Shown here piece after piece: positions 1-17,518 of a stretch of 33,024 nt of DNA. Position numbers and translations under genes: made by a program. Each line of letters opens with the position of its first letter. The stretch's first letter is position 1. The notes beneath the pieces were generated by a model. The model did not search any database and was not told the origin of the DNA. It worked only from the letters and a program-made list of their open reading frames with translations. Source of the DNA: a virus; the IMG/VR virus record IMGVR_UViG_3300009285_001640, positions 1 to 33,024 of that record, one strand, 5' to 3'.

Positions 1-1
1 C

Positions 2-685
2 GCGCTTGAAACAGTCGGCGGGGATTTGTACATCCACTCACAGGCCAGTCTGAAATCCGACGCGCTTGAAACAGTCGGCGGGAATTTGTACATCGACTCA
101 CAGGCCAGTCTGCCCGCGCTTGAAACAGTCGGCGGGAATTTGTACATCGACTCACAGGCCAGTCTGCCCGCGCTTGAAACAGTCGGCGGGTATTTGTCCA
201 TCGACTCACAGGCCAGTCTGAAATCCGACGCGCTTGAAACAGTCGGCGGGGATTTGTCCATCGACTCACAGGCCAGTCTGCCCGCGCTTGAAACAGTCGG
301 CGGGGATTTGTCCATCCACTCACAGGCCAGTCTGCCCGCGCTTGAAACAGTCGGCGGGTATTTGTCCATCCACTCACAGGCCAGTCTGAAATCCGACGCG
401 CTTGAAACAGTCGGCGGGGATTTGTACATCCACTCACAGGCCAGTCTGAAATCCGACGCGCTTGAAACAGTCGGCGGGAATTTGTACATCGACTCACAGG
501 CCAGTCTGCCCGCGCTTGAAACAGTCGGCGGGAATTTGTACATCGACTCACAGGCCAGTCTGCCCGCGCTTGAAACAGTCGGCGGGTATTTGTCCATCGA
601 CTCACAGGCCAGTCTGAAATCCGACGCGCTTGAAACAGTCGGCGGGGATTTGTCCATCGACTCACAGGCCAGTCTGAAATCCGAC
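2..685 (+). repeat. 12-unit in-frame tandem repeat (54/60 bp)
   Basis: Seven-unit phasing gives unit starts at 2, 62, 116, 170, 230, 284, 338, 398, 458, 512, 566 and 626. Units are 54 bp (ending in CCC, Pro) or 60 bp (ending in codons for KSD). Within the shared 51 bp I see only three variable bases: unit position 22 (G/A/T giving D/N/Y), 29 (A/C giving Y/S) and 34 (G/C giving D/H). All three are nonsynonymous and no silent difference was seen. Units 1-4 have the same types, in the same order, as units 8-11. Confidence 0.95.
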
Positions 686-1162
686 GCGCTTATAAAAGGT
701 AAAAATGAAAATGCGAAATTGAAAATACGGGAATCATTTGCCGGGCGAGGATATCTCTTTGCCGACAATATCCTCTCAAAATTCATCAGCAAGAAGAAAT
801 CTGGGAAGATTGTATTATGGAAAACAAGAAAAATAGGTTCGCAGAAAATACTCTATGTGGCCCAAAAGGGGGAGATGTTTTCCCACGGAGAAACGCCCAA
901 ACAGGCGGCTCATGATCTACGCTATAAGCTGACTGATCACGACACGACAAAATACAAGGGCTGGACGCTGAAGAGTATTCACCCATTAGCGGAGATTATC
1001 GGGGCGTACAGGGTTATCACTGGCGCATGCGAGGCCGGGGCCAAGCAGTTTTGCGAGGGTAAAAAGATACCGGCCAGAATGTCCGTCCAAGCCGCTATCA
1101 AAGCCACCACCGGCGCGTGGGGCGCGGGGAAATTCGCGGAGTTCTTTAAGGAGGGGAAATAA
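2..1162 (+). CDS. repeat-solenoid protein with conserved C-terminal domain (5' partial)
   Basis: The frame is open to the left window edge, so the true start lies outside; a TTG at 26 is an internal repeat codon and not a start. Residues 1-228 are twelve tandem units of 18 or 20 residues with the core ALETVGGxLxIxSQASL. Their regular L/V/I spacing suggests a stacked beta-solenoid, reminiscent of receptor-L or leucine-rich repeats. The last ~150 residues are non-repetitive and basic, with motifs YKGWTLKSIHP and AYRVITGACEAG. From memory, this type of C-terminal domain recurs in repeat proteins of phages and mobile elements, but I cannot name the family. There is no signal peptide in the visible part. 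Function is unknown; binding or adhesion is only a guess from the solenoid shape. Confidence 0.85.
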   Translation, partial: ALETVGGDLYIHSQASLKSDALETVGGNLYIDSQASLPALETVGGNLYIDSQASLPALETVGGYLSIDSQASLKSDALETVGGDLSIDSQASLPALETVGGDLSIHSQASLPALETVGGYLSIHSQASLKSDALETVGGDLYIHSQASLKSDALETVGGNLYIDSQASLPALETVGGNLYIDSQASLPALETVGGYLSIDSQASLKSDALETVGGDLSIDSQASLKSDALIKGKNENAKLKIRESFAGRGYLFADNILSKFISKKKSGKIVLWKTRKIGSQKILYVAQKGEMFSHGETPKQAAHDLRYKLTDHDTTKYKGWTLKSIHPLAEIIGAYRVITGACEAGAKQFCEGKKIPARMSVQAAIKATTGAWGAGKFAEFFKEGK

Positions 1163-1207
1163 ATGATACGACCATTATACAAATCAGTTGAGCAGGGATT
1201 AAAATAA
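1163..1207 (+). CDS. possible 14-residue leader ORF
   Basis: An ATG directly abuts the stop of the repeat protein and follows an AG-rich sequence (gaggggaaataa). It encodes only 14 residues (MIRPLYKSVEQGLK) and ends 14 bases before the next start. It could be a coupling or leader peptide, or chance. There is no independent support beyond position and the ribosome-binding sequence. Confidence 0.25.
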   Translation: MIRPLYKSVEQGLK

Positions 1208-1221
1208 AGGAGAAAATAATC

Positions 1222-1392
1222 ATGCAAATTGACATAGTAGGAATAGTGATAGGTTTATCCGGCAGCTTTGGTTTAGGATTCTGGGCAAGGGGAGTCATTG
1301 AGAAGTGGGATAGACTGGAAGCTGACCGGAAAAAGGAATTTATTAAAAAAAAACAAGCTGAATATATTTTTAAATATGGAGGGGGAAATTAA
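1222..1392 (+). CDS. small single-span membrane protein, 56 aa
   Basis: The ORF has a good ribosome-binding site (aaggag, 1207-1212) and its TAA overlaps the methyltransferase start by one base (TAATG), so it is probably coupled to it. Residues ~4-22 (IVGIVIGLSGSFGLGFWA) form one hydrophobic segment. A charged tail rich in Lys and Glu follows, likely cytoplasmic. I recognise no family. Its position argues for co-expression with the cytosine methyltransferase. Confidence 0.6.
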   Translation: MQIDIVGIVIGLSGSFGLGFWARGVIEKWDRLEADRKKEFIKKKQAEYIFKYGGGN

Positions 1393-2426
1393 TGGGCATT
1401 AATGTTCTTTCTCTTTTTGATGGGATGTCATGCGGGCAGATAGCGCTTGAACGTGCCGGGATAAAAGTTGACAACTACTTTGCCAGCGAGATTAAACCCC
1501 ATGCCATAAAAGTTACGCAGTATAACTACCCCAAAACCATACAACTCGGTGATGTAACCGAAATAACAAAAGACATGTTGCCTAATATAGATATGGTAAT
1601 AGGTGGGAGTCCTTGCCAGGATTTTTCATCAGCAAATAATAATAGGTTGGGATTAAAAGGCGAAAAGAGTAAACTTTTTTTTGAGTATCTTCGGATATTA
1701 AAAGAATTAAAGCCCAAATATTTTCTATTGGAAAATGTAGTTATGGACTTTATGCAGAGTTCGTTTATTTCAGATTGCCTCAATTGCTATCCGATACGAA
1801 TTAATAGTTCCCTTGTTTCTGCGCAAAATAGAGAAAGATTTTATTGGACAAATATCGGGCCAAGTGATGTAGATTTGTTCTACAATCATATATGCAATAT
1901 TCCCCCCCCAGAGGATAAGTTTATTCAGTTAAAGGATATTTTGGAAGATGGCTTTTGTAATATGAATAAATCAAGAAGCCTACTATCCTCGGATAGTAGG
2001 CCATTGGCTACACCTACAAAGATGTTCCATCGCTACAATGATACAGGGTTTACAACTTGCGTTTTTAAAGATGAACAGGCTTACATGGAAATGCTCGCTG
2101 CACATACAAAATCTAAGATAAACCAGATAAACCAGATAAACCAAGTTAAAGAATTTGGGAACAATCCACATACTGAAAATCGTATATATTCAGATGTGGG
2201 AAAAATAGGAACTTTAACCACGGTTAATAGTTATAATTTTAAAATATTCAGTAAGAATAAAATACGCTACCTGACCCAAAAAGAATTGGAGCGTTTACAA
2301 ACTGTCCCAGAGGGATATACTAATATAATTAAAAGAAATCAAGCTGCTGATTGTCTTGGGGACGGATGGACAGTAGAAGTAATAGCCTACATCTTCAGTT
2401 TCTTGCCAAAGGAATATAAACAATGA
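1392..2426 (+). CDS. DNA (cytosine-5) methyltransferase
   Basis: This 344-residue protein has the C5-methyltransferase motifs in order: SAM-binding LSLFDGMSCGQIAL (residues 6-19), catalytic GGSPCQDFS with Cys75, ENV at 114-116, QNRERFYW at 145-152, and a C-terminal motif near LGDGWTVEVIAYIF. The family transfers a methyl group from SAM to C5 of cytosine in a target site. The LFDGMSCGQ and FASEIKPHA signatures resemble the short, Dnmt3-like enzymes common in phages. Length is normal and the gene looks intact. No partner restriction endonuclease is visible, so protection of phage DNA against host restriction is the likely role. The target-recognition region (~residues 180-270) contains an inverted repeat and a tandem NQI coding repeat near 2118-2147. 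Confidence 0.93.
   Translation: MGINVLSLFDGMSCGQIALERAGIKVDNYFASEIKPHAIKVTQYNYPKTIQLGDVTEITKDMLPNIDMVIGGSPCQDFSSANNNRLGLKGEKSKLFFEYLRILKELKPKYFLLENVVMDFMQSSFISDCLNCYPIRINSSLVSAQNRERFYWTNIGPSDVDLFYNHICNIPPPEDKFIQLKDILEDGFCNMNKSRSLLSSDSRPLATPTKMFHRYNDTGFTTCVFKDEQAYMEMLAAHTKSKINQINQINQVKEFGNNPHTENRIYSDVGKIGTLTTVNSYNFKIFSKNKIRYLTQKELERLQTVPEGYTNIIKRNQAADCLGDGWTVEVIAYIFSFLPKEYKQ
1978..2001 (+). repeat. perfect inverted repeat, 11-bp arms, 2-bp spacer
   Basis: Arms gcctactatcc and ggatagtaggc flank tc. The element lies within the target-recognition coding region of the cytosine methyltransferase. It would form a tight hairpin in mRNA or an extruded cruciform in DNA. Confidence 0.8.
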
Positions 2427-2644
2427 CCAAATCACAAGACCTGATAGAAAAGCTAAAAGCAGATATAGAAAGCCTTTACAATAAAGGCTACAGCGATGGT
2501 TACGCACAAGGGGTAGAGAATGGCAAAAGCCTGGCGAAACTTCCCGCCATGCAGAATAGCGAGCATGGTGCTAAAAAGGTGTTCAAGGATTCAGCCGGCA
2601 ATAGCGTTACTGTTTTTAATGGGGTGGAGAGGAGAAAGAGATGA
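2423..2644 (+). CDS. small charged protein, 73 aa
   Basis: The start overlaps the methyltransferase stop as ATGA and the stop overlaps the next start as ATGA, so the three genes form a coupled string. An N-terminal amphipathic helix (residues 1-20) is followed by a GYSDGYAQGVENGK segment, a Gly/Tyr pattern frequent in small phage proteins. There is no signal peptide or cysteine cluster. I do not recognise the family. Confidence 0.7.
   Translation: MTKSQDLIEKLKADIESLYNKGYSDGYAQGVENGKSLAKLPAMQNSEHGAKKVFKDSAGNSVTVFNGVERRKR
2471..2489 (+). repeat. short inverted repeat, 8-bp arms, 3-bp spacer
   Basis: Arms agccttta and taaaggct flank caa inside the small coupled ORF. It resembles the hairpins in the two flanking methyltransferase genes in its tight loop, but is shorter and could be chance. 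Confidence 0.55.
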
Positions 2645-2871
2645 AACAAGTAAAATTCAAGGCAAATAAAGGTTGCTATAATTCATTTAAATTAAAAAAT
2701 TGTTTAACCATTGCGAGATTATTAAGCCGCAGACCACATAATATCCAATGGTTACATAGAGAATTGGAAGTGTCTGAAAGAAGCATTTTAAGATATTTAC
2801 AAGCCCTGGATTCTGCCGGTTTTAGACTTAAAAAGTGTGAAAAAAAAAGTTGGTACCAAATTGATAAATAG
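2641..2871 (+). CDS. winged-helix/HTH DNA-binding protein, 76 aa
   Basis: Residues ~20-70 read as a helix-turn-helix of the HTH_11/DeoR-like type: the segment NIQWLHRELEVSERSILRYL is followed by a short wing (GFRLKKCEKKSWYQI). The gene is coupled by ATGA to the preceding ORF and is the last gene before an apparent promoter, so it may regulate the neighbouring unit. No ligand-binding domain is present. The regulatory target is inferred from position only. Confidence 0.7.
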   Translation: MKQVKFKANKGCYNSFKLKNCLTIARLLSRRPHNIQWLHRELEVSERSILRYLQALDSAGFRLKKCEKKSWYQIDK

Positions 2872-2924
2872 AGAAATATCTGAACCAAACAAAACCGCCG
2901 CTTGTCTTTTTTCCGGTGTCAATA

Positions 2925-2933
2925 TGGTATAAT
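2925..2933 (+). promoter_or_regulatory. putative extended -10 promoter
   Basis: TGG-TATAAT gives an extended -10 (TGn) plus a perfect TATAAT hexamer. The best upstream match, TTGTCT at 2902-2907, is 20 bp away, which is too far for a good -35, so the extended -10 probably carries recognition. A ribosome-binding sequence (gcggaggtc) follows at 2938, before the ATG at 2954. Confidence 0.6.
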
Positions 2934-2953
2934 AATGCGGAGGTCTTAAAAAA

Positions 2954-4168
2954 ATGCAATTATCATGGAATACCGAAAAGCGTAAAATCAAAGATCTTGT
3001 TCCATATAAACATAATCCGCGCCGTCTCACCGAAGAACAAGGTGCTCAACTTAAAAAATCCCTTGAAAAATTTAATCTTGTGGAAATCCCGGCCATAAAC
3101 ACGGATGGAGTAATTATTGCCGGCCATCAACGGTTGTCCATAATGCAGGCATTGGGACGAGGCGGAGAGATGATCGATGTCCGTGTGCCAAGCCGGAAGT
3201 TAACCGAGGCGGAATTGAAAGAGTATAATCTAAGATCAAATAAAAATACAGGGGAATGGGACTTTGACATACTCGCTAACGATTTTGAACAATCGATGCT
3301 TACCGATGTGGGGTTTAATCTAGCAGAATTTCCAGAGCCGGAACAAACCGTAGTGGAAGGCCAGGACGACGTGCCCGAAATGCGGGCCACGAAGATTAAA
3401 GTCGGGGATATGTTCCAACTTGGTGATCATAGGCTGATTTGTGGCAGCGCGATAGATGAAAAAATAGCAGATAAGATTATGGCAGATGATAAAGTGATAT
3501 GTGTATTTACAGACCCACCATATGGAGTCAGTGTAGGCAAAAAGAACAAAATGCTTAGCACCTTCCAGCCCGCTGGAAGGTGCCTGAATAATCTCATAAT
3601 GGATGATATGAAGCCCGCAGAGCTTGGAGATATGTTATTAAAAGCATTTACTTTGTGGCGCACTCAAATGGCAGACAACTGTTCAGTATTTGTCTGTAGC
3701 CCGCAGGGCGGAGGCTTGGGGATGATGATGATGATGATGATGATGAAAGAATCTGGCCTAGAGGTTCGCCATGTTATTAACTGGGTGAAAAATTCCCCGA
3801 CATTTAGTATGGGCCGGCTTGATTACGATTACCAGCATGAGCCGATATTATTTACATGGACCAAAACACATAAACGAAAAAAAGCTGGCGTATTTCAAAC
3901 TTCCTTGTGGGCCGTAGATAAGCCGAGGGCATGTGATTTACATCCAACGATGAAGCCGGTTGAATTACCGGAAAATGCAATAATGAACCACACAGATAAA
4001 GGAGATATAGTGGTCGATATGTTCGGAGGGAGTGGTACAACGCTTATAGCCTGCGAAAAGACCTGCCGCAAGTGCCGCGTGGTTGAACTAGAACCTGCTT
4101 ACTGCCAAATCATAATAGACCGATGGGAAAAGTTAACTGGTAAAAAATGTATTACCATTGATAAATAA
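2954..4168 (+). CDS. ParB-domain DNA methyltransferase (N6-adenine/N4-cytosine type)
   Basis: The protein has 404 residues. The N-terminal ~100 residues are a ParB/Srx-like domain (KIKDLVPYKHNPRR, then AGHQRLSIMQAL with GHQR at 57-60). The C-terminal part is an amino-methyltransferase with catalytic DPPY at 187-190, HPTMKPVEL at 330-338 and SAM-binding DMFGGSGTT at 355-363. The DPPY-before-FxGxGT order fits the beta class. This two-domain layout is common in phages and mobile elements. The start follows GGAGG-like sequence and a promoter. Unusual features are an (ATG)8 run coding for eight methionines at residues 257-264 and a 12-bp inverted repeat, both in the variable region between the motifs. 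Protection of phage DNA against restriction is the likely role. Confidence 0.92.
   Translation: MQLSWNTEKRKIKDLVPYKHNPRRLTEEQGAQLKKSLEKFNLVEIPAINTDGVIIAGHQRLSIMQALGRGGEMIDVRVPSRKLTEAELKEYNLRSNKNTGEWDFDILANDFEQSMLTDVGFNLAEFPEPEQTVVEGQDDVPEMRATKIKVGDMFQLGDHRLICGSAIDEKIADKIMADDKVICVFTDPPYGVSVGKKNKMLSTFQPAGRCLNNLIMDDMKPAELGDMLLKAFTLWRTQMADNCSVFVCSPQGGGLGMMMMMMMMKESGLEVRHVINWVKNSPTFSMGRLDYDYQHEPILFTWTKTHKRKKAGVFQTSLWAVDKPRACDLHPTMKPVELPENAIMNHTDKGDIVVDMFGGSGTTLIACEKTCRKCRVVELEPAYCQIIIDRWEKLTGKKCITIDK
3558..3583 (+). repeat. perfect inverted repeat, 12-bp arms, 2-bp spacer
   Basis: Arms gcaccttccagc and gctggaaggtgc flank cc inside the ParB-methyltransferase gene, just after the DPPY motif. Unpaired bases flank it on both sides, so the palindrome is sharply bounded. 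Confidence 0.85.
3722..3745 (+). repeat. (ATG)8 trinucleotide microsatellite
   Basis: Eight consecutive ATG codons lie in frame in the methyltransferase gene and encode Met257-Met264. Unit gain or loss would change protein length without shifting the frame. The run could also offer internal start codons, but none has a clear ribosome-binding site. Confidence 0.9.
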
Positions 4169-4186
4169 ACAAAAATGGATTATAAT
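4158..4186 (+). promoter_or_regulatory. strong sigma70-type promoter before terminase small subunit
   Basis: TTGATA (4158-4163), a 17-bp spacer and TATAAT (4181-4186) match the consensus at 11 of 12 positions. Transcription starting about 7 bases downstream would begin at or next to the ATG at 4193, giving a leaderless message. The -35 overlaps the 3' end of the upstream methyltransferase gene. Confidence 0.65.
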
Positions 4187-4639
4187 AAAATTATGGCAGG
4201 AAAAAAAACAGGTAGAACAAATAAACCAGGAGCCGGAAGAAAGCTTTTTGACGGTAAAGATTATCACACCGTGATTCAGAAATTATGTCAGGCATGGAGC
4301 GTTGGCGCTTCAGATAGAGAAGCGTCGTCGCATGCTGGCATAACTCCGAGCGCTCTTTGCGCTTACCAAAAAAGACACCCTGAAATATCTGTACAAAAAG
4401 ACGCATTGCTGGAAACACCTATTTTATCGGCTAGGGTAGCTCTATCTCAATCCATAAAAGCCGGTGACGGTGCGCTGGCGCTTAAATATCTTGAGCGCAA
4501 GCGCAAGGACGAATTTTCAGAACGGCGTGAAATAGTCATGGAGGACAGTAAACGGCTTGAGTGGGCAAAGCAAGCCATGAACTCTCCGGAATTATCGGAT
4601 GACATTTCCAAACTGATGGGAAAAATAGCCAAGAGATGA
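4175..4639 (+). CDS. terminase small subunit-like protein
   Basis: The protein has 154 residues and resembles small terminase subunits. A basic, Gly-rich start (GKKTGRTNKPGAGRK) precedes a helix-turn-helix segment around residues 45-75 (ASDREASSHAGITPSALCAYQKR). A segment typical of these proteins follows (ALSQSIKAGDGALALKYLERKRKDEF), then an acidic/helical tail. Small subunits bind packaging sites on phage DNA and hand it to the large subunit. The start could be 4175 or, if the message begins at the adjacent promoter, 4193 (MAGKKTG). Neither has a clear ribosome-binding site. Unusually, the large subunit gene is about 5.8 kb downstream. Confidence 0.75.
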   Translation: MDYNKIMAGKKTGRTNKPGAGRKLFDGKDYHTVIQKLCQAWSVGASDREASSHAGITPSALCAYQKRHPEISVQKDALLETPILSARVALSQSIKAGDGALALKYLERKRKDEFSERREIVMEDSKRLEWAKQAMNSPELSDDISKLMGKIAKR

Positions 4640-5529
4640 CTTTTAAAAAATACAGGGAACTATGGGCGCAGGCTCATATTAAAACGCCAGCTATGCCACT
4701 AAACGTGGATATTGAATTATCCGCTATTTGTAATCTCAAATGCCCTTTCTGTTTTCTCTCAAACCCAAAACATGAACAGCCGCACAAATTCATGTCGCTT
4801 GATTTGGCTATCCAAACCATAAACGCGGCGCAGCGGATGGGAGTGCCGGCCATAAAATTGAACTGGCGCGGAGAGTCAACGCTTAATCCAAATTTTACCC
4901 GCATAGCAGAATATGCAGCCACAATGGATTTTCACGAAATCCTTTTGAACACAAATGGAAATTACAATGAGATGGCGCTTGATGGGCTTTTGGCCTGTAC
5001 GAAAGTCATGTTCAGCCTGGACTCCATGGTTCCGGCCACATACAAGAAAATGAGGTGCGGCGGAGATCTATTCCGTGTGGCCACCAATATCCAGCGATTG
5101 ATAGAATCCGGACACCGGAACATATGGGTAAGGCGGGTTATAACTGCGGATAATAAATCAGAGGATTTTGTACGGGCCGTGCGTGATGCATTTTGCGATA
5201 AAGTGAAAGTGGCTGAGCATTACTGTTTTGACCGCGTAAAGGGGCAGGATAGGCCCGCCGAGCGAGTATACTGTGGCTATCCGAGCCAGCGGCTTGTGGT
5301 GGCATGTGATGGTGGTATATATCCATGCTGTGTGGACTACGATTGCACTATGAAGTTGGGGGAGGCGACCAGGCTTAAAGAGGCATGGGCCATGGCTCAG
5401 AACTTAAGAGAGTGCCTGAAAGCAAATGATAAACAATATTTTACTGACGTGTGCAAAAATTGCACAAGTTGGATGGCGTACAAAAGCCCAAAGAGAGAAT
5501 ATGTCGCGGATAGAGAGATTGAAATATGA
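4636..5529 (+). CDS. radical SAM/SPASM enzyme
   Basis: This 297-residue protein carries the radical SAM cluster motif CNLKCPFC (Cys32, Cys36, Cys39) and a WRGESTLNP segment equivalent to the GGEP motif (~77-85). A C-terminal SPASM-type region has Cys213, Cys224, Cys231/232, Cys237, Cys273 and Cys276, which can bind auxiliary iron-sulphur clusters. Such enzymes start radical chemistry on peptides, sugars or cofactors. No precursor peptide with an obvious leader is adjacent, whereas a cytidylyltransferase/glycosyltransferase is, so sugar modification is a reasonable guess. The start overlaps the terminase small subunit stop (ATGA). Substrate is unknown. Confidence 0.88.
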   Translation: MTFKKYRELWAQAHIKTPAMPLNVDIELSAICNLKCPFCFLSNPKHEQPHKFMSLDLAIQTINAAQRMGVPAIKLNWRGESTLNPNFTRIAEYAATMDFHEILLNTNGNYNEMALDGLLACTKVMFSLDSMVPATYKKMRCGGDLFRVATNIQRLIESGHRNIWVRRVITADNKSEDFVRAVRDAFCDKVKVAEHYCFDRVKGQDRPAERVYCGYPSQRLVVACDGGIYPCCVDYDCTMKLGEATRLKEAWAMAQNLRECLKANDKQYFTDVCKNCTSWMAYKSPKREYVADREIEI

Positions 5530-5669
5530 AAATGAAAATGGACGAAGTGGACACAAAACAGCAGCGGCAGATTGACGCACTTATAATGACCGTTGGTGTG
5601 ATCGGGATGATTCTCACTATCTGGTGTGCGACACTTACTGTAACTATTTTGGAATTTTCAAAAAAATGA
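5526..5669 (+). CDS. tiny single-span membrane protein, 47 aa
   Basis: The ORF is coupled by ATGA overlaps to both the radical SAM gene before it and the cytidylyltransferase fusion after it. The N-terminus (MKMKMDEVDTKQQRQ) is charged, and residues ~19-42 (LIMTVGVIGMILTIWCATLTV) form one membrane helix. It is too short to assign. Its position suggests it may anchor or accompany the neighbouring enzymes. Confidence 0.6.
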   Translation: MKMKMDEVDTKQQRQIDALIMTVGVIGMILTIWCATLTVTILEFSKK

Positions 5670-7012
5670 TTGACCATTTAGCCATTGTATGCTCTCGGCT
5701 TGAATCTTCCCGCTTACCAGGTAAGGCTTTTAAGCGTATCTCCGGCAGGCCGGCGATTGAGCATATTATAAAGCGCCTTCAGGCCGCTAATATCAAAACC
5801 GTTATTGCCGTCCCTCTCAATGATTTACACGAGTACCAGTCCCGCTTGACACATACAGGTGTGGAAATAGTTTCCGGTAATGCCGACAGCCCTCTACATA
5901 GGCTCTACGATGTGGCCCGGCTGTATGATAGCCCGAAGTGGATTATTCGTGTGACACACGATGACATTTTGATTGATGGTCAGACTGCACTTGATACGCT
6001 TGAGGCTTGCGAGTGGGATGATAGCGGCTATGGGTGCAGCCCCGGCATAGTGGAGGGCGCGGGCGTTGAAATAATCCGCTTTGAGAATTTGGAACACGCC
6101 GCAAAAAAACGCATAGAGCCTACGGAGTTCGTGAGCTATTTTGTAAAAGGCGCCGGACTACCATTTCCAAGGATTACAAAGCATGAACCAAGAATAAACG
6201 TAAAGCGCGACTACCGGCTAACAATGGATTATCCACAGGACGCGCAGGCCCTTGAGGTTGTGCTACGCGCCACAGGCCCGGACGCTTCCGTAGATACTAT
6301 CTGCTATCATCTCGACCATAACCCATATATTTTAAATATCAATCGCCTGCCGGAGTTCTCAATTTACACCTGCGCTCACAATGCCGCATCATTTATATCC
6401 CAGACCATAATGTCCGTTTTAAATTCCGATATCCCAAAAATGGAGTATATCATCGTGGATGACTACTCAACGGATGGAACCTTAGGCCAGATAGCCAGAC
6501 ATTTCCACGATACGCGATTACGGCCAATACTAAATGAATCCAATAAAGGCCTTGCCAGTTCCAGCAATATAGCCTTGGCCTCCTGCCGGGGAAAATATGT
6601 CATGCGAGTCGACGCGGACGATATACTACTCCCAGATAATTTTAGCCAACACTTATGGACGCTTAAAAATAAAATTGACTCTGGCGCGAGCGTGGTATAT
6701 CCTGCATTTTATGAGATGGACGAAACAGGGCAGCGCAGGGATGACATGGTAGACCCGCGGGTATCACACCACGCCGGTTGTGCGCTTATGAGCAAGGCAG
6801 TGGTCAATGAGTTTCGCTTTCGTGATGGCCTACGGCATTGGGATGGCCTGGAATTGTATAACCGCATGGGCGCGGCCGCAGAATATTTTGACTATCCGCT
6901 ATGGCTTTATCGGAAGCACAATAAATCCATGAGCGTAAATAATCTGGAAGAACGCGCCAGCGTAAAGGGATTTATAACCAGTGAAGAACTTAAAACTAAA
7001 AAGGGAACATGA
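5666..7012 (+). CDS. SpsF/NeuA-like cytidylyltransferase fused to GT2 glycosyltransferase
   Basis: From the ATG at 5666 the protein has 448 residues. Residues ~1-215 match the SpsF/acylneuraminate cytidylyltransferase fold: AIVCSRLESSRLPGKAF (nucleotide-binding loop, 6-22), RVTHDD at 95-100 and RLTMDYPQD at 184-192. This family activates acidic or rare sugars as CMP-sugars. Residues ~229-440 are a GT-A family 2 glycosyltransferase with VDDYSTDGT (264-272) and DADD (316-319), the metal-binding DxD. One polypeptide could therefore activate and transfer a sugar. An in-frame ATG at 5624 would add 14 residues, but ATGA coupling to the small membrane ORF favours 5666. Substrates are not determined by sequence. 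Confidence 0.88.
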   Translation: MIDHLAIVCSRLESSRLPGKAFKRISGRPAIEHIIKRLQAANIKTVIAVPLNDLHEYQSRLTHTGVEIVSGNADSPLHRLYDVARLYDSPKWIIRVTHDDILIDGQTALDTLEACEWDDSGYGCSPGIVEGAGVEIIRFENLEHAAKKRIEPTEFVSYFVKGAGLPFPRITKHEPRINVKRDYRLTMDYPQDAQALEVVLRATGPDASVDTICYHLDHNPYILNINRLPEFSIYTCAHNAASFISQTIMSVLNSDIPKMEYIIVDDYSTDGTLGQIARHFHDTRLRPILNESNKGLASSSNIALASCRGKYVMRVDADDILLPDNFSQHLWTLKNKIDSGASVVYPAFYEMDETGQRRDDMVDPRVSHHAGCALMSKAVVNEFRFRDGLRHWDGLELYNRMGAAAEYFDYPLWLYRKHNKSMSVNNLEERASVKGFITSEELKTKKGT

Positions 7013-7128
7013 AAATAGCATTTATTTTAATCATGGCAATATTCGCCTGCGGCTGTTCCACCTTGCGCGGGCTTGGTGAATATAGGGCCGCACAAGTTGA
7101 TAAATGCCCATGTGGATTTATAAAATGA
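7009..7128 (+). CDS. tiny lipoprotein-like peptide, 39 aa
   Basis: The start overlaps the stop of the fusion gene (ATGA). MKIAFILIMAIFACGCS is a short signal sequence with cysteines at 14 and 16, either of which could be lipidated. About 23 residues follow, including KCPCG. If exported, it would be a very small lipoprotein, in size like an outer spanin, but no inner spanin is adjacent. I do not recognise a family. Confidence 0.5.
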   Translation: MKIAFILIMAIFACGCSTLRGLGEYRAAQVDKCPCGFIK

Positions 7129-7316
7129 ACAATAAGATAAAAGGCCAATCGTGTAGCGGGATAGCCAATATGTTGGAATGGCTTCGTTTCAGATTAAAAT
7201 ATGATTCTCCAATGGATAGGCCGTTTATCCGAGTGGCCATTCGCAAATGTCATAAGTTTATAAAGGAGGAAAATCTTATAAAGTCCACCATGCGAAAGGC
7301 TGGACTCTCGGATTAA
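7125..7316 (+). CDS. small basic protein, 63 aa
   Basis: The ATG at 7125 overlaps the lipoprotein stop (ATGA) and is preferred over an in-frame ATG at 7104, which lies inside that gene. The sequence is basic and helical (NMLEWLRFRLKYDSP, then VAIRKCHKFIKEENL) with no membrane segment. The family is unknown; nucleic-acid binding is possible from the charge only. Confidence 0.55.
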   Translation: MNNKIKGQSCSGIANMLEWLRFRLKYDSPMDRPFIRVAIRKCHKFIKEENLIKSTMRKAGLSD

Positions 7317-7319
7317 TTT

Positions 7320-7400
7320 ATGGTAACTCAAAACGAACTGATAGGTATAGCCGCCTGGACAAAACCAGTATTGCACCAAAAACTGCAAGGCCGGAGCTTC
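7320..7400 (+). repeat. direct repeat copy 1 (27 codons)
   Basis: This 81-bp block matches 7711-7791. The first 50 bp are identical, and the rest carries six synonymous changes. Flanking sequences are unrelated on both sides. Confidence 0.85.
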
Positions 7401-7421
7401 GCACAACAAAAAACTAAATAA
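7320..7421 (+). CDS. 33-residue partial duplicate of the ORF at 7711
   Basis: The first 27 codons encode exactly the same residues as the start of the ORF at 7711 (MVTQNELIGIAAWTKPVLHQ and onward to GRSF). Six unrelated codons and a stop follow. The two DNA copies differ at six bases, all silent. It could be a truncated relic or a functional short peptide; the silent-only differences favour selection on the protein. Confidence 0.45.
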   Translation: MVTQNELIGIAAWTKPVLHQKLQGRSFAQQKTK

Positions 7422-7442
7422 ACCGGAGAATGTAAACTGATT

Positions 7443-7580
7443 ATGGAATGGTACACTATAACCTATATCACGATTGTTCCAATGCAGATAGATGGGCTGA
7501 TGTTTAATCCTGTTGAAAATCCGAAAACTGCGGCCTTGATAAAATGGATTGATGAACTATGGGAAATAAAAAAAGCGTGA
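7443..7580 (+). CDS. small hypothetical protein, 45 aa
   Basis: The ORF starts after an AG-rich site (ccggagaa, ~7424-7431) and overlaps the next ORF by 22 bases. The sequence (MEWYTITYITIVPMQIDG, then KTAALIKWIDELWEIKK) has no recognisable motif. Support is context only: it lies in a dense string of coupled short ORFs. Confidence 0.4.
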   Translation: MEWYTITYITIVPMQIDGLMFNPVENPKTAALIKWIDELWEIKKA

Positions 7581-7717
7581 AGCGTAAAAAATTACCATTT
7601 ACCATGTGGCTTAATTCCATATGGACTAATAACCAAGAACTCCAAAAAGCATATATTGCCGGGAAAAAGTTCGATAAAATTGAAAGCGAAAAGGATAAAA
7701 CTAACGCAAAATGGTAA
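7559..7717 (+). CDS. small basic hypothetical protein, 52 aa
   Basis: This Lys-rich short ORF (MGNKKSVKRKKLPF at the start) overlaps the preceding ORF and ends seven bases into the next start (ATGGTAA). No family is recognised. Its strong positive charge would suit nucleic-acid contact, but there is no further evidence. Confidence 0.4.
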   Translation: MGNKKSVKRKKLPFTMWLNSIWTNNQELQKAYIAGKKFDKIESEKDKTNAKW

Positions 7718-7791
7718 CTCAAAACGAACTGATAGGTATAGCCGCCTGGACAAAACCAGTCCTTCACCAAAAGCTACAAGGCCGTAGCTTC
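7711..7791 (+). repeat. direct repeat copy 2 (27 codons)
   Basis: Partner of the block at 7320-7400; here the block is the N-terminal part of a longer ORF. Confidence 0.85.
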
Positions 7792-8052
7792 AATGGCTGT
7801 ATGACTTTCCGACGTAATATCCAGCAGGCAATAACCGAGTACGCCCGACATAACACGCGCCTGGACATGATACAGACAAACGCTATTCAAATATGTAGTT
7901 GGATTGAGAGTTGGTGCCGGGACGCTTACTATAAGAATCGCCTGCAGGCTATCCTGCGCGAGCGCCCCGACCTTATTCTGAAGTCAAAGGCCGCGGCTAA
8001 ATCCGTAGTCCGTACTGAATGGGCGGCCCTTGCCGCAAGGTGGAATTTCTGA
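7711..8052 (+). CDS. hypothetical protein, 113 aa
   Basis: The protein is mostly helical, with a Trp/Tyr-rich centre (ICSWIESWCRDAYYKNRL) and a basic C-terminus. Its first 27 residues are duplicated exactly at 7320-7400. There is no signal peptide or membrane helix. The start overlaps the upstream ORF stop. I do not recognise the family. Confidence 0.6.
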   Translation: MVTQNELIGIAAWTKPVLHQKLQGRSFNGCMTFRRNIQQAITEYARHNTRLDMIQTNAIQICSWIESWCRDAYYKNRLQAILRERPDLILKSKAAAKSVVRTEWAALAARWNF

Positions 8053-8282
8053 AAATATATATTAGATCGGAAAACGCTAGGATAATCCTTTCAATCCGAA
8101 ACAAAACGCAAAAAGAAGCGGCTCAAACCGCAGGCATTACTCCGGAACATTTCAGCCGGCTGATGACTGGTGAATGTCAGCCCTCTGCCGATACGAGAAA
8201 AAAATTAACAAGTAAGGTTTTTACAGGCGTTGCATGGGACAGGCTTTTCAAAATAGTAGATAATACGGGTGGGAGCCTATGA
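8019..8282 (+). CDS. XRE-family helix-turn-helix protein
   Basis: The segment RNKTQKEAAQTAGITPEHFSRLMTG (given here as residues ~27-51; the core is QKEAAQTAGITPEHFSRLM) is a typical Cro/C1 helix-turn-helix: Q..-A...AGI....FSRL..G. Length is 87 residues if the ATG at 8019 is used, which overlaps the preceding gene by 34 bases; a GTG at 8040 is an alternative. Neither has a clear ribosome-binding site. The stop overlaps the synthase start by ATGA. It is probably a small DNA-binding regulator, perhaps of the cargo genes. Confidence 0.7.
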   Translation: MGGPCRKVEFLKIYIRSENARIILSIRNKTQKEAAQTAGITPEHFSRLMTGECQPSADTRKKLTSKVFTGVAWDRLFKIVDNTGGSL

Positions 8283-9091
8283 CAGACCTCGCCACAATGC
8301 GTAGTTTCGGGCCTAGGCCGCGATATGAGCGTGTTTTAGCCTATAAGCCACCGGATATGCCCAAACCGCTTATAATAGCGGGGCCGTGCCAGATTGAGTG
8401 CTTTGAGCAGGTAAAGGCAATCGCTTATTTCCTTGAGCATCAGAAAATAGAGTTTATGCGTGGAGGAATTTTCAGCGCTGGCACATATCCAGGTGATAAA
8501 TTCGGCCTGCGGGAAAAAGACCTTGTAATGTGGCGGCAGGCGGCTAATGAGCACGGGCTCAAAATAGTAGTCGAGGTATTTGACCCGCGACACGTTGAAA
8601 TTGTCGCGCATTACGCGGATATTATCCAGATCGGTGCGCGGGCAATGCAAAATTATGCCCTGCTGAACGAAATGGCGAAGCTGGATAAATGGGTAACGCT
8701 CAAACGCGCACCAGGTGCAACGCTGGATGAACTGCTGGGCGCGTGTGAGTACCTGCTGAAAGGCAAGGCAAAGCCAATATTAGTGGAGCGCGGTGGTTCC
8801 AGCCACCTAAACCACACGCGGTGGGAGTTATCCGTAAGCTTGATAGCGGCGGTGAAAGCGCTTTGCCGCGTGCCGGTACTGGTAGACGCTTCCCATTGCT
8901 CTGGCCGGCGCGACCTGGTAGAGCCGCTTACGCTGGCCGGGATAGCAGCGGGCGCGGACGGCTGCATAGTGGAGTGCCACCCAGAGCCGGACAATGCGGC
9001 GGGCGCGGACGCGGTACAGACTATAAGTTTTCCAAGTATGGCAAAGCTGGCAGACAAAATAAAAAAAATACACAGGGAGATTAACCAATGA
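8279..9091 (+). CDS. DAHP/KDO8P synthase-fold enzyme with altered substrate loop
   Basis: This 270-residue protein belongs to the DAHP synthase I/KDO8P synthase family, which condenses PEP with a phosphorylated aldose. Conserved features are GPC (metal-binding Cys37), RGG at 61-63, QIGARAMQN (117-125), LKR (141-143), ERG (170-172), DASH (203-206, metal His206), Glu232 in VECHPEP and Asp244. Overall it is closer to the DAHP type. The loop that in DAHP synthases reads KPRTSP, and in KDO8P synthases KANRSS, is SAGTYP here (66-71), so the expected Lys and Arg contacts to the sugar phosphate are absent. It may use another aldose or be inactive for the classical reactions. It is coupled by ATGA to both neighbours. 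I therefore give no aroF or kdsA symbol. Confidence 0.88.
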   Translation: MTDLATMRSFGPRPRYERVLAYKPPDMPKPLIIAGPCQIECFEQVKAIAYFLEHQKIEFMRGGIFSAGTYPGDKFGLREKDLVMWRQAANEHGLKIVVEVFDPRHVEIVAHYADIIQIGARAMQNYALLNEMAKLDKWVTLKRAPGATLDELLGACEYLLKGKAKPILVERGGSSHLNHTRWELSVSLIAAVKALCRVPVLVDASHCSGRRDLVEPLTLAGIAAGADGCIVECHPEPDNAAGADAVQTISFPSMAKLADKIKKIHREINQ

Positions 9092-10446
9092 TTGAAAAAT
9101 GCCCAATATGTGGCGGCGGAGATTTACACAAAGACGATAAAATACATAGTGAAAGTGTGATTGTAGTTTGCAAGGCATGTGGCTTTGCCAGCCACGATTA
9201 TGACGAAACCAAAGAAGCTGAAATGCTGGCCTACTATAAAAACCAGCACCGGAAGGCCGTAATCGGAAAGCAGAAGCCGGACTACGCGAACATAATCACT
9301 ACGAACAATAAGAAGGCACTTATTTCAAAATTCCTGGCTGACTTTCTGAAAGATAAAAAAGGTCTGATAGTAGGTGATATAGGCGCGGCTACCGGATATC
9401 TTGTCCACTGGTTTAGAACATTGGGCCACAGGGCCACCGGCAGCGAGTACGCCGTACAATATCGAAGAATGAGTGAGCATTACTATGGAGTACCGCTTAC
9501 CGAGGAACTGCCGACAAAGCACAAATACGACCTGCTGACCATATATCATGTTTTGGAGCACATGATAAGGCCGGATTTAAAATTAATGAAATATCGGGAT
9601 ATGTTGGCAGATGGCGGCCACATAATGATAAGTGTTCCAGAGTATTTCAACAGGCTGGATGAGGGCACCGGCACAAATGTCATTATGCACAATACGTCTG
9701 CTCAACACGATTTTGACGGATATTTCCACAAAGACCATGTGAATATTTTTAGCCGGGTATCAATTAAAAATCTTGTTGCTAAATGCGGATTTGAAATAGT
9801 CAAAGATGAATATGAGGGCTGCGGGATTACGTTGCTTTGTAAAAAAATAGACCTTGCAAAATATGAGCCCATTGTAGAAGATTACGGCGGAGTGCTTAAA
9901 AAAATACAGTCAGTAAAAAACGCAATACTTGCGGCTAAAGATAATAATTGGGCCAAGGCCATCGAAATATATCCGGAGTTCCCGGAGGCACATGTCGCCA
10001 TGATAATGATGGTGAATCAGAAAGACCCGACCAAGCAGACCGATTATATGGATCAGATTGAAAAGAACTGCCCGCAAACGTGCGGCGGAGCGCGGTATCT
10101 TTCAACAAAGGGAGCATGGCTTTACCAGAATCAGCGATACCAAGAGGCACTTGAAACGCTGGAAAAGTGCGTTAATCTGCGTCCGAATCCTGACATATTT
10201 ATGTTTATCTCTTGGTGCCTGCTGGAATTGAACAGGCCGCACGACGCTATTAAAATTCTCAATTACGCCATGATGTTAAATCCTGGAAAATGGATTGAAG
10301 CTTTAAATTTCCAGTTAAACGCTGCCTGCTCTATCCCGACATGGGACGAAAGAGCTATGGAAGAAATGAAACATGCTTTTACTGAACAAAACAAATCCAC
10401 CATAGAGGCCATGAGTCCTAAAGACCCGGTGATGGATGGTGTCTAA
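9088..10446 (+). CDS. zinc-ribbon / SAM methyltransferase / TPR protein
   Basis: The protein has 452 residues. It opens with a zinc ribbon (CPIC at 5-8, CKAC at 28-31). A class I methyltransferase follows, with motif I GDIGAATGYL (96-105) and a YHVLEHM segment, resembling the Methyltransf_23 group often found in polysaccharide clusters. Residues ~320-425 form TPR-like helical pairs (YQNQRYQEALETLEKCVNLRP). It is coupled by ATGA to the synthase upstream and overlaps the large terminase by 11 bases. Methylation of a sugar or glycan is a reasonable guess; the substrate is unknown. Confidence 0.85.
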   Translation: MIEKCPICGGGDLHKDDKIHSESVIVVCKACGFASHDYDETKEAEMLAYYKNQHRKAVIGKQKPDYANIITTNNKKALISKFLADFLKDKKGLIVGDIGAATGYLVHWFRTLGHRATGSEYAVQYRRMSEHYYGVPLTEELPTKHKYDLLTIYHVLEHMIRPDLKLMKYRDMLADGGHIMISVPEYFNRLDEGTGTNVIMHNTSAQHDFDGYFHKDHVNIFSRVSIKNLVAKCGFEIVKDEYEGCGITLLCKKIDLAKYEPIVEDYGGVLKKIQSVKNAILAAKDNNWAKAIEIYPEFPEAHVAMIMMVNQKDPTKQTDYMDQIEKNCPQTCGGARYLSTKGAWLYQNQRYQEALETLEKCVNLRPNPDIFMFISWCLLELNRPHDAIKILNYAMMLNPGKWIEALNFQLNAACSIPTWDERAMEEMKHAFTEQNKSTIEAMSPKDPVMDGV

Positions 10447-11848
10447 ACTCACACCCGAAGAATTGGCGATTCTTTCCCCGGCAGGCTTTGCGTGGTACGC
10501 TTCACAAGGTAAATGGATTTGCTCACCACATATTGAATACCTAAACCGAAAGCTTATTGATGTGGCCGCAGGCCGCTGTACTCGACTTATAGTCACAGAA
10601 CCGCCGAGGCATGGGAAAAGCGAGTTCATCTCTAAATATTTCCCGGCCTGGTATCTCGGAATGAACCCCGATAGCCGGATAATACTGACTTCCCATGAAG
10701 CCTCTTTCGCTGCGTCCTGGGGCCGCAAGGCGCGCGATCTACTAGTGGAACATGGCCACCTTTTCGGAATTAAGGTAAACCAGGAATCTTCAGCCGTGCA
10801 GGACTGGAACATTTTAAAGCGGCATGGCGGCATGAACACCGCTGGTGCTGGCTCCCCGATAACTGGAAAGGGAGCCAATATAGCTTTAATAGATGATCCC
10901 TTAAAAAACTCCGAGGAAGCCATGTCGCCGCTTATGCGGGAGAAAATAAAGGAATGGTTTAAGTCCACGCTGTACACGCGCCTTGAGCCTGATGGCGCGA
11001 TAATAATAGTAATGACTAGGTGGCACGACGACGACCTTGTGGGATGGCTGCTATCTGAAGAAAAGAACGGCGGAGAGAAGTGGGATACCGTGAACTTTTC
11101 CGCGATAGCCACGCATAACGATATTTTAGGCCGCAAGCCAGGCGAGGCGCTATGGCCGGCCAGGTTCCCGCTTGATACATTGGAAAAGATACGTAAGGCC
11201 ACCGGCACATTTTGGTGGTCTGCGATGTATCAGCAGAATCCAGTACCGGAAGGCGGCGCGATTATAAAGCGCGAGTGGTGGAAGTATTACCAGACTGCGC
11301 CAGATAGAAAGTCAATACGCCGCTATATCTGGGCATGGGATACGGCTGTAAAATCTGGAGAGGAAAACGATTTCACGGTGGGTGTGTACCTGGCGGAAAC
11401 AGACACCGGCTATTATGTGCTGGATTTGAAGCGTGATAAAATGGAGTACCCAGAACTCAAACGGGCAGTAAAGCAGTATTACGATAACAGCCGGGCCTCT
11501 GCGGTTATCATTGAGGATAAGTCCAGCGGGCAACAGCTTATACAAGAATTTCAGAGAGATACCAAGATACCTGTAATAGCCGCCGGAGAAGAAGGTAAGC
11601 CCCTGGCCGACAAGACTACGCGGGCCATGCTTGTGACTCCGCTTATAGAGTCAGGTGTGGTCTACCTTCCAGAGCAAGCACCATGGCTGTCAGAGTTCCT
11701 CGACGAATGCCTGAAGTTTCCTAAATCATCACACGATGACCAGGTGGACGCGCTTGTACATGGTCTTACATATCTAAAAGACAGCAAGCCGCCAAACTTA
11801 AATAACTTCCTTTTAGGCGGAGAGAGAGAATCAAGCAGAGATTTTTGA
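10436..11848 (+). CDS. terL: terminase large subunit (TerL)
   Basis: This 470-residue packaging motor has a Walker A PPRHGKSE (56-63), a Walker B NIALIDDP (148-155) and a C-terminal RNase H-like nuclease with Asp302 in WAWDTAV, EDKSSG and SSHDDQVDAL. The ATPase drives DNA into the prohead and the nuclease cuts concatemers. Length and domain order are normal for the gp17-like family. The gene overlaps the preceding cargo gene by 11 bases, so the cargo is part of the same transcription unit and not a cleanly separated insertion. Confidence 0.96.
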   Translation: MVSKLTPEELAILSPAGFAWYASQGKWICSPHIEYLNRKLIDVAAGRCTRLIVTEPPRHGKSEFISKYFPAWYLGMNPDSRIILTSHEASFAASWGRKARDLLVEHGHLFGIKVNQESSAVQDWNILKRHGGMNTAGAGSPITGKGANIALIDDPLKNSEEAMSPLMREKIKEWFKSTLYTRLEPDGAIIIVMTRWHDDDLVGWLLSEEKNGGEKWDTVNFSAIATHNDILGRKPGEALWPARFPLDTLEKIRKATGTFWWSAMYQQNPVPEGGAIIKREWWKYYQTAPDRKSIRRYIWAWDTAVKSGEENDFTVGVYLAETDTGYYVLDLKRDKMEYPELKRAVKQYYDNSRASAVIIEDKSSGQQLIQEFQRDTKIPVIAAGEEGKPLADKTTRAMLVTPLIESGVVYLPEQAPWLSEFLDECLKFPKSSHDDQVDALVHGLTYLKDSKPPNLNNFLLGGERESSRDF

Positions 11849-11961
11849 TTATCTAAATCTTAATTACAGCACAAGATTTTAAGCATTTTATACAATGGCA
11901 TTGAAAAATAGGCATTTTGACCGTGTTTACTTGTTGGCTGAATATCATTAATATATAGCCA

Positions 11962-14136
11962 ATGCCGGCACAAACAAAAGAAGAAAAACTATTTGCAGAA
12001 ATAAAGCCACAAGATAAATTCCAGTCAGACGGTGAACTGTCAGCGAATTTAACATTTCCCATTACGACCCGTGGTATCTTTCGTTCTTCTTATTACTCCG
12101 AATCTTACAACTTCCCTTATAATCCTGACCCGTTGGCTCGTGGGCAATACGCCACATACGACGAGATGAAGAACGACGACCAGGTAAAGGCGGCCATGTC
12201 AATTAAAAAAGACATGGTGCTAAATACTAGCTGGCAGATTGTTTGCGATGATGAAAATGTAAAAAAGGAAATAGAGAAAACGCTTAATGAAGTTAACGCT
12301 GGCAAGCTATATGGTGGGTTTGATTCTTTTTTGAGGGATATACTTTCAGCCTACGAATATGGCTTCAGCATGTCTGAAGTGCTTTTTAAATTAGAGGGTG
12401 GAAAATACTGGTTGAAGTCATGCGCTACAAAACCGCCTCATACGTTTGAGTTTGATGTGGATGATTTTGGTGATGTGACCAATGTCCGGCAGATAGGCAA
12501 TAAAGGAAATTTAAATTTTGAACCTGCGTATTTTCTGCATTACGGCTATCAACAGGAATGGGGAAATCCTTTTGGAAAGAGTGACCTTAAATCAGCGCAC
12601 CCGGCATGGAAGGCTAAAAAATTCTTCATGCGGATGTTCGCTATTTATGCTGAGAGATTCGGCACACCGACTACTGTGGGTAAATATCCTAAAAACTACG
12701 GCACTTCCGAAATAACACAGTTTAACACCGTTTTAAAATCAATCCAGAATAACACCACGCTGGCTATACCGGAGGACGCGCTTGTTGATTTTGTACAGGC
12801 TACGCGCGACGGCTCGGATGTGTACACCAAGGGCATGGATATGTTCAACCTCTGGATAGCGCGGTCTATCCTTGTTCCTGACCTATTGGGAGTATCAGGT
12901 GAAAAGGTGTCCGGCGGCTCTTATTCGCTTGGAGAAAAACACTTTAACATGTTCTTAGCCACCTTAGCCAACGATCGTAAAATCCTTGCAAGCAAAATAA
13001 ATGAGAAAATAATAGACCCTATTTTGAAAGCAAATTATGGTGACAAGATTAAAGCATTTTTTAAGTTCTTGCCTTACTCCGAGGACGATTCGCTTGAAAT
13101 GTCAAAGACGTGGGTGGACGCAGTTAAAGGCCATGTGTTCAAACCGAATGAACAGGAAATAAACCATTTCCGAAAAACTACTGGCTTCCCTGAAGGGCCG
13201 GTAGAGATAGTGGAGCCAGCGCCCGCAGCGGCACCTTTCGGCGGACAGCCCAAGGAAGAAAAGGAACTGGCCCATGATGGCCATACGCACACTTACTCCC
13301 GTGAGCTTTTTTCATATGAGAAAAAATGCGACTTCGCAATGGCCGCAAAGACCATGAATGAATCGGAAGATATCCTTGTGCCGCAGATCATGAGGACAGG
13401 CCGGCTGATATACTCTGACCTGGTTCAGCAGGTAAAAGACAAGGGTATTATGAACAAGTTTACCCCTGACAAGGTGAACGAACTTAAGCCCCGCTTCCAG
13501 CGCGAAATGAACTCGGCGCTTAAAACAAATTTCAATACCCTTTTCAAGAAGTCCATAAAGGCTGCCCAGCTTGAGATGTTCCCGTCCAGCGCTAAGGGCT
13601 ACGCAATGGATGATGACCTGCTGCCGGAAGAGTTCTTGGCCATATTGGACGCGGAGTCGTTTAAAATGGTGGGTGACTATTCCAATGAAATCACTAAGAA
13701 AGTAAAGAACAGCGTCATGCAGGCCATCAAGCAGGGCGTATCAGAAAGCGCTCTCGCAAAAATACTCATGGATGAGGCCAAAGGCTTTACGGAGAAATGG
13801 GCCGCGACCGTAGCGCGTACAAAGACCACGGAGATTTACAATCAGGCCCGCAAAACGTATTGGGATACCGACCCTATAGCCAAGCAGATAATTGTCGCGT
13901 ATAAATTTAGCGCGATAATGGACACACGGACAACGGAAGTATGTTCCAAACTGGACGCTATGCCACCTTTTACTAAGGGAGATTTTACCAGTGCAATAGT
14001 TCCCCCATTACATTTCGGATGTCGCAGTATTCTTGTACCTGTTACAATTTACGAGGAGTATATAGCAGCTAAAGAAGTTCCGATGGACAAAATAAAAGAG
14101 TGGGGCGGCAATCTAGTGCTGCCGGATTCAAAATAG
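11962..14136 (+). CDS. portal (DUF935/Mu gp29-like) fused to MuF head morphogenesis domain
   Basis: This 724-residue protein joins two normally separate head proteins. Residues ~20-430 match DUF935-type portals (DQVKAAMSIKKDMVLNTSW, HYGYQQEWGNPFGKSDL, AERFGTPTTVGKYP). A His-rich linker follows near 437. The last ~150 residues match the Mu gpF/SPP1 gp7 minor head domain, with DTRTTEVC (~653-660) and HFGCRS (~683-688). The portal forms the ring through which DNA enters; MuF proteins attach to it inside the head. No ribosome-binding site is evident before the ATG. The 113-base gap upstream is AT-rich, with a weak TTGACC/TATCAT pair at an unfavourable 20-bp spacing. Confidence 0.9.
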   Translation: MPAQTKEEKLFAEIKPQDKFQSDGELSANLTFPITTRGIFRSSYYSESYNFPYNPDPLARGQYATYDEMKNDDQVKAAMSIKKDMVLNTSWQIVCDDENVKKEIEKTLNEVNAGKLYGGFDSFLRDILSAYEYGFSMSEVLFKLEGGKYWLKSCATKPPHTFEFDVDDFGDVTNVRQIGNKGNLNFEPAYFLHYGYQQEWGNPFGKSDLKSAHPAWKAKKFFMRMFAIYAERFGTPTTVGKYPKNYGTSEITQFNTVLKSIQNNTTLAIPEDALVDFVQATRDGSDVYTKGMDMFNLWIARSILVPDLLGVSGEKVSGGSYSLGEKHFNMFLATLANDRKILASKINEKIIDPILKANYGDKIKAFFKFLPYSEDDSLEMSKTWVDAVKGHVFKPNEQEINHFRKTTGFPEGPVEIVEPAPAAAPFGGQPKEEKELAHDGHTHTYSRELFSYEKKCDFAMAAKTMNESEDILVPQIMRTGRLIYSDLVQQVKDKGIMNKFTPDKVNELKPRFQREMNSALKTNFNTLFKKSIKAAQLEMFPSSAKGYAMDDDLLPEEFLAILDAESFKMVGDYSNEITKKVKNSVMQAIKQGVSESALAKILMDEAKGFTEKWAATVARTKTTEIYNQARKTYWDTDPIAKQIIVAYKFSAIMDTRTTEVCSKLDAMPPFTKGDFTSAIVPPLHFGCRSILVPVTIYEEYIAAKEVPMDKIKEWGGNLVLPDSK

Positions 14137-14153
14137 GGAGAAAAAAAAAGAGT

Positions 14154-14534: not shown

Positions 14535-14548
14535 ACGGAGGTTTTACA

Positions 14549-15850: not shown

Positions 15851-15856
15851 TTTTGT

Positions 15857-15874
15857 AAGGGCCAACGCGCCCTT
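15857..15874 (+). other. small hairpin in the gap before the protease gene
   Basis: aagggc and gccctt flank a six-base loop in the 65-base gap. There is no T-tract, so it is unlikely to be an intrinsic terminator. A second weak pairing (ggtg/cacc) follows at ~15878-15895. Confidence 0.35.
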
Positions 15875-15915
15875 CATGGTGGACATAGCACCACCCGATT
15901 TAAGAGGTAAAAAAT

Positions 15916-17031: not shown

Positions 17032-17092
17032 ATAAGTATGGGCAATGACCTTGCCTATATAAAAAATCGGAATACGAAAAGGAGAAAATAAA

Positions 17093-17497: not shown

Positions 17498-17518
17498 TCT
17501 AAAGGAGAAAACTACACT

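Follow-up and report, generated by a model that had tools for sequence, protein, structure and literature searches.

The complete IMG/VR virus record IMGVR_UViG_3300009285_001640 (33,024 bp, hereafter the window) carries, between the genes of its small and large terminase subunits (terS and terL), about 5.8 kb of enzyme genes that belong to a conserved cassette of uncultured phages. CMP (cytidine monophosphate)-ulosonate synthesis by this cassette is probable as judged from the predicted enzymes, while glycosylation of the virion, probably of its tail tube, has about even chances. The full proposal, a late cassette that makes a CMP-activated 3-deoxy-2-ulosonic acid, i. e. a sialic acid- or Kdo-like sugar, and places it on the virion, may equally well hold or fail. 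The following genes all lie on the plus strand. The cassette encodes a BtrN-like radical S-adenosylmethionine (SAM) enzyme with one auxiliary (twitch/SPASM) cluster (4636-5529; PF04055, PF13186), a fusion of a CMP-sugar cytidylyltransferase (CTP_transf_3, PF02348) with a GT2 glycosyltransferase (PF00535; 5666-7012), a small helical protein of 113 aa known from alignments and a predicted all-helical model (7711-8052), a synthase of the DAHP synthase (DAHPS) family, which uses phosphoenolpyruvate (PEP) and an aldose and has SAGT in place of KPRT (8279-9091; PF00793, DAHP_synth_1, E 2e-45), and a Zn-ribbon SAM methyltransferase with C-terminal tetratricopeptide repeats (TPR; 9088-10446; PF13489, Methyltransf_23, and PF07719). 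Outside the island, a Maf/PseD-like protein, likely a protein glycosyltransferase (20382-21362; PF01973, E 8e-20), is encoded directly before the tail tube protein that is proposed as its acceptor (21349-22359; PF18906, Phage_tube_2, E 2e-25; phrog_290, tail). This Maf/PseD-like gene, which had no part in the initial sequence-only reading of the island, is the most informative gene of the system. The enzyme families, their synteny, the exchange of the synthase and the adjacency of the Maf-like and tube genes can be read directly from the DNA.

The order radical SAM enzyme, cytidylyltransferase-GT2 fusion, small helical protein, synthase and Zn-methyltransferase-TPR protein recurs in 15 other virus contigs at identities as low as about 30%, and this repeated arrangement excludes chance. 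In L001 (IMGVR 3300005326_000141), all of these genes are present in 64-74% identical form, and a dehydrogenase-like gene is added. Among 84,980 species genomes, a motif scan had a single match, a phage contig in an Endomicrobiia metagenome-assembled genome (MAG; L091/L094), whose cassette is 29-48% identical to that of the window and is flanked by an unrelated terL and by the portal gene. With a profile from these three fusions (window, L001 and L094), 13 further viral contigs with a full-length fusion were recovered, and in 13/13 a radical SAM gene lies upstream and a Zn-methyltransferase-TPR gene downstream on the same strand. This co-occurrence is not circular, since the profiles were built from three members only. 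It took the three-row fusion alignment to recover these 13 relatives, as single-protein and two-row scans had missed them, and L088 and L089 turned out to be false matches of the motif scan of viral contigs. In total, the three genes stand in order in 16/16 cassette contigs and in 0/87 control loci (at least 70% model coverage), which include 80 loci with KdsA-type genes and without the cassette, excepting L005, a copy of L001. The enzyme families thus travel together rather than scattered, as the sequence-only reading had anticipated, and on gene content and order we regard the cassette as certain to be a real, conserved module. The fusion has no cellular copy in 341 genomes from the phylum to which the Endomicrobiia MAG belongs, and a search of the same genomes for the Maf-like protein returned the same phage contig only; isolate phages gave no match to the radical SAM, methyltransferase, Maf-like or tube proteins. 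As for hosts, the only lead is this MAG, and the binning of the phage contig into it may be wrong.

The best evidence for the nature of the sugar comes from the synthase. The DAHPS and NeuB families share a chemistry, the condensation of PEP with an aldose to a 3-deoxy-2-ulosonic acid. A search of the whole records found exactly one PEP-type synthase in every one of the 16, either DAHPS-like (10 records: window, L094, L001, L101, L102, L106, L107, L109, L111 and L113) or NeuB-like (six: L103, L104, L105, L108, L110 and L112, all passing the PF03102 cut-off). Its gene usually lies between those of the fusion and the methyltransferase, the NeuB genes of L110 and L112 being nearby; weak NeuB matches in L107 and L109 proved to be their DAHPS genes. 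On well-supported branches of the fusion tree, the synthase type must have changed at least three times. As two synthase families of shared chemistry interchange in this way, the cytidylyltransferase would activate an ulosonic acid.

KPRT is the erythrose-4-phosphate (aldose-phosphate) motif of DAHP synthase. The corresponding residues of the window enzyme, aligned with KPRT of P. furiosus DAHPS (1zco), are SAGT, as in L001, and most relatives have RAGT. The residues C37, K142, R171, H206, E232 and D244, which we take to be the PEP and metal-binding residues of DAHP synthase, are kept in the window, L001 and L094. Compared with type I-beta DAHP/KDO8P synthases, the phage enzyme shares the fold and the catalytic and metal residues, but has [R/S]AGT where these have KPRT (or KANRS). 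Because KPRT is lost, it is probably neither a DAHP nor a KDO8P synthase; it misses the NCBIfam cut-offs for the former (251 bits versus 335; 234 versus 268) and the latter (74 bits versus 314), and the KANRS motif is absent. The earlier assignment to a DAHP/KDO8P synthase fold therefore stands for the fold family (PF00793), and by motif for neither of the two activities. The missing KPRT suggests that the aldose substrate lacks the usual terminal phosphate. A scan of the 84,980 species genomes for the AGT motif matched one contig, a phage contig, and within the limits of this strict motif the AGT-type synthase looks nearly confined to viruses. Another variant of the aldose motif, KPCT, occurs in a DAHPS-like gene of the viral contig L002, where many sugar and glycosyltransferase genes, among them one for a cytidylyltransferase, stand in a row (1-18000).

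Both halves of the fusion exceed their Pfam cut-offs (PF02348, 45 bits versus 22.6; PF00535, 80.6 versus 23.3), and its RxxSxRxxxK-type signature (S14, R16, K20) and the acidic metal motif of GT2 (D316, D318, D319) are invariant in 16 homologues. Its PDB matches include the cytidylyltransferase 6oew, KdsB and SpsA; the NCBIfam equivalog cut-off for CMP-Kdo synthetase (KdsB) is missed (30-36 bits versus 155-281). In the radical SAM enzyme, C32, C36, C39, C213, C231, C232, C273 and C276 are invariant in 15 homologues, and the CxxxCxxC motif and four auxiliary-cluster cysteines align with cysteines of the aminocyclitol-oxidising BtrN. BtrN is the best PDB match by sequence (E 9e-23) and by predicted fold (4m7t, E 2e-11) and likewise has one auxiliary-cluster domain, but is only 18% identical in the structural alignment. 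The Zn-ribbon cysteines C5, C8, C28 and C31 of the methyltransferase-TPR protein are invariant in 16 homologues. Pfam matches over cut-off and conserved cysteines thus bear out the identities first given to these three proteins, whereas the start of the fusion, read initially as GTG 5624, is ATG 5666, with a 47-aa open reading frame (ORF; 5526-5669) before it. The small helical protein follows the fusion in 15/16 cassettes. Its model is confidently all-helical (pLDDT 91) and has no significant fold match in the PDB, and 12/15 of the otherwise very divergent homologues end in Tyr or Phe.

Maf proteins transfer CMP-nonulosonic acids onto flagellin. The plausible candidate for the corresponding step in the phages is the product of 20382-21362, which passes PF01973 (71.7 bits versus a cut-off of 34.6). 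PF01973 genes occur in 14/16 cassette records, the two without being the shortest contigs, and over cut-off in 2/39 other virus records, chosen for KdsA-type genes and not at random (Fisher p 3e-9). The KdsA-bearing viral contigs L135 (record of L047) and L136 (record of L068), which lack the cassette, also have PF01973 genes, one of them directly after a portal-like gene. The best NCBIfam match is the flagellin modification protein PseD in 4/4 tested proteins, and the best PDB match is 5MU5, the Maf of Magnetospirillum (PMC9298399). Maf1 binds flagellin directly and glycosylates it in the cytoplasm (PMC4065374). The Maf-like gene follows the same 165-aa tail-region gene in 14/14 records and precedes the PF18906 tail-tube gene in 13/13 records whose sequence continues, with a small ORF between the two in L121, L131 and L132; in L001, the Maf-like gene is cut by the contig end. 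By family and position, this protein is the likely candidate for the protein glycosyltransferase of the system.

As predicted enzymes, synthase, cytidylyltransferase and transferase form a coherent make-activate-transfer pathway, for which we infer substrates, order of steps and acceptor as follows. The TIM-barrel synthase, or the NeuB-type synthase that takes the same step in other members, would condense PEP with an aldose, and the cytidylyltransferase half of the fusion would convert the product into a CMP sugar. The Maf/PseD-like protein may then attach the sugar to Ser/Thr residues in a tail protein, in the way Maf modifies flagellin, and the GT2 half of the fusion may extend or cap the glycan. 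Conceivably, the BtrN-like enzyme oxidises or epimerises the sugar and the Zn-methyltransferase methylates it, its TPR perhaps docking the protein acceptor. Several observations weigh against this proposal. The Maf-like protein has 326 aa, and its alignment covers no more than a section of the central region of Maf (at most PseD positions 222-460); it falls short of a full-length, three-domain Maf/PseD of about 640 aa (28.6 bits versus a PseD cut-off of 670), and PF01973 also covers the archaeal MptE (8sd5, E 0.08). The radical SAM fold also resembles the peptide maturases SkfB, CteB and SuiB, sactipeptide maturases following closely on BtrN. The acceptor sugar precursors are not encoded. Finally, since cassette distances correlate with portal distances (rho 0.8), cassette and tail genes may share a history without a shared function.

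The same CMP-ulosonate could instead end up on the envelope of the host during late infection, blocking re-adsorption of progeny to debris or excluding other phages. The GT2 domains resemble transferases of cell-surface glycans (TuaG, SpsA), and the block of one relative (L101) contains an endolysin gene, but the cassettes had no recognisable membrane-bound polymerase, flippase or lipid-carrier transferase, flippase and polymerase being absent from the annotated cassette genes, and the Maf-like gene stays with that of the tail tube; we consider this destination rather unlikely. Still less probable is a peptide-modifying role of the radical SAM enzyme and its partners, in which the small helical protein would be the substrate and would be decorated by the sugar genes. 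Such a role would accord with the match of the radical SAM/twitch fold to SkfB, CteB and SuiB and with the terminal Y or F of 12/15 small proteins. Yet, sequence and fold both match BtrN best, the small protein folds into a helical bundle of 90-124 aa, unlike a leader-core precursor, and neither a peptidase nor an exporter was recognised.

Two further explanations are each very improbable. If the synthase were an auxiliary metabolic gene of the shikimate pathway that raises DAHP, the other genes would be unrelated passengers; although type I-beta DAHP synthases are the closest large families, this was rejected on the loss of KPRT, the replacement of DAHPS by NeuB-type synthases in the same cassette and the 16/16 co-occurrence with the fusion. 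Placement of the sugar on phage DNA as a hypermodification is brought to mind by two DNA methylase genes upstream (1392-2426 and 2954-4168). Against it, a search of 14 records, run without a positive control, found no Tet/JBP-type hydroxylase, the cassette is among the late genes, and the Maf-like gene stands beside a tail gene.

Glycosylation of the virion by a phage-made ulosonic acid would have its closest counterpart in flagellin glycosylation by nonulosonic acids, where a PseI/LegI NeuB-type synthase, a PseF/LegF cytidylyltransferase and a Maf/PseD transferase represent the same three kinds of enzymes, and where a Maf/PseD-like gene likewise neighbours a gene for a surface protein that polymerises (PMC9298399, PMC4065374). 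In contrast to the flagellin system, the present one is carried by phages, its synthase is often DAHPS-derived and its cytidylyltransferase is fused to GT2, its Maf-like protein has about 326 aa and neighbours the tail tube instead of flagellin, and a radical SAM enzyme and a Zn-methyltransferase-TPR protein are added. Glycosylation of phage virions is usually pictured as the work of phage transferases that use host sugar nucleotides. For mycobacteriophages, phage-encoded glycosyltransferases were proposed to modify virion proteins (PMC11256854); the phages described here apparently also encode the enzymes that make the activated sugar, and their transferase is Maf/PseD-like. FlmG of Caulobacter is reported to be a soluble, modular, TPR-bearing enzyme for O-glycosylation of flagellin in the cytoplasm (PMC7591256), whereas in the phages TPR sits on the methyltransferase and the likely transferase is Maf-like. 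The parts and the general kinds, i. e. nonulosonic acid glycosylation and phage virion glycosylation, are thus already known. In the literature within reach, which comprised few subscription papers, no description was found of the cassette, or of CMP-ulosonate synthesis joined to a Maf-like protein at a tail-tube gene. These phages seem to bring their own enzymes for making an activated sugar, as well as a Maf-like protein whose gene adjoins that of its likely target. Replacement of one synthase type by the other suggests that a change of sugar has been favoured by selection, and for enzymology the cassette supplies a member of the DAHPS family whose aldose site is altered. Tentatively, one may picture a flagellin-style phage system in which a new CMP-ulosonic acid, made by a DAHPS-derived synthase without the aldose-phosphate motif and tailored by the radical SAM enzyme and the methyltransferase, decorates the phage's own tail tube, with the synthase swapped between lineages to change the sugar.

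The position of the island, which the sequence-only reading had stressed, is real in the window. The assignment of 4175-4639 (plus strand) to a terminase small subunit held up (phrog_4102, 'terminase small subunit', E 5.5e-10), and 10436-11848 (plus strand) encodes the large subunit (phrog_38, E 9e-113; Terminase_6C/6N). However, among the 16 contigs the block lies between terS and terL in the window and L001 only; it is found between terL and portal in L094, upstream of terS-terL-portal or terL-portal in L101-L106 and L110-L113, and elsewhere in L107-L109. TerL is of different families across the cassette phages, and BLASTP found no similarity between those of the window and L094. Because block position and TerL family vary among relatives, the terS/terL slot is, on this comparison, incidental and not the defining feature. 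The proposal of one pathway accordingly finds its backing in the co-occurrence of make-activate-transfer enzymes, and not in the slot. The claimed gene-by-gene coupling applies to most junctions, with four-base ATGA overlaps at 4636, 5526, 5666, 7009, 7125, 8279 and 9088, but the stretch 7013-7710, with small ORFs and a partial duplication, is not tightly coupled throughout, and the TerL gene overlaps the preceding methyltransferase gene by 11 bp. In the window, TerS (4175-4639) resembles that of L001 (3769-4104) mainly in its C-terminal part, the N-terminal halves differing, which looks as if the DNA-binding part had been swapped.

The remaining genes of the island, again on the plus strand, are small. 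The 47-aa protein encoded by 5526-5669 is transmembrane-like, coupled on both sides by ATGA overlaps and matched by phrog_15952 alone, weakly. A variable slot (7009-7710) holds a lipoprotein-like 39-aa ORF (7009-7128), small ORFs and a partial gene duplicate: an 81-bp direct repeat, 93% identical between 7320-7400 and 7711-7791, partially duplicates the beginning of the small-helical-protein gene. At the position of this slot, L001 has a 265-aa dehydrogenase-like gene, and the relative L101 matches UDPG_MGDP_dh at 757-1494. The endolysin gene of L101, of type GH108 (11308-11796), lies between the fusion and small-helical-protein genes. A helix-turn-helix protein (8019-8282; phrog_3642, E 4e-5) is present in six cassettes, with homologues in L001, L102, L103 and L105 and a similar ORF in L104. 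Upstream of the island, positions 1-691 of the window form an in-frame array of about 12 copies of a 54-bp repeat that encodes ALETVGGxLxIxSQASL units and is truncated by the contig end. Moreover, a ParB-like/N6-N4 DNA methylase gene contains 8 to 11 consecutive ATG codons (poly-methionine; 3721-3746), and such an ATG run also occurs in the Endomicrobiia phage contig L094 at about 3760-3800.

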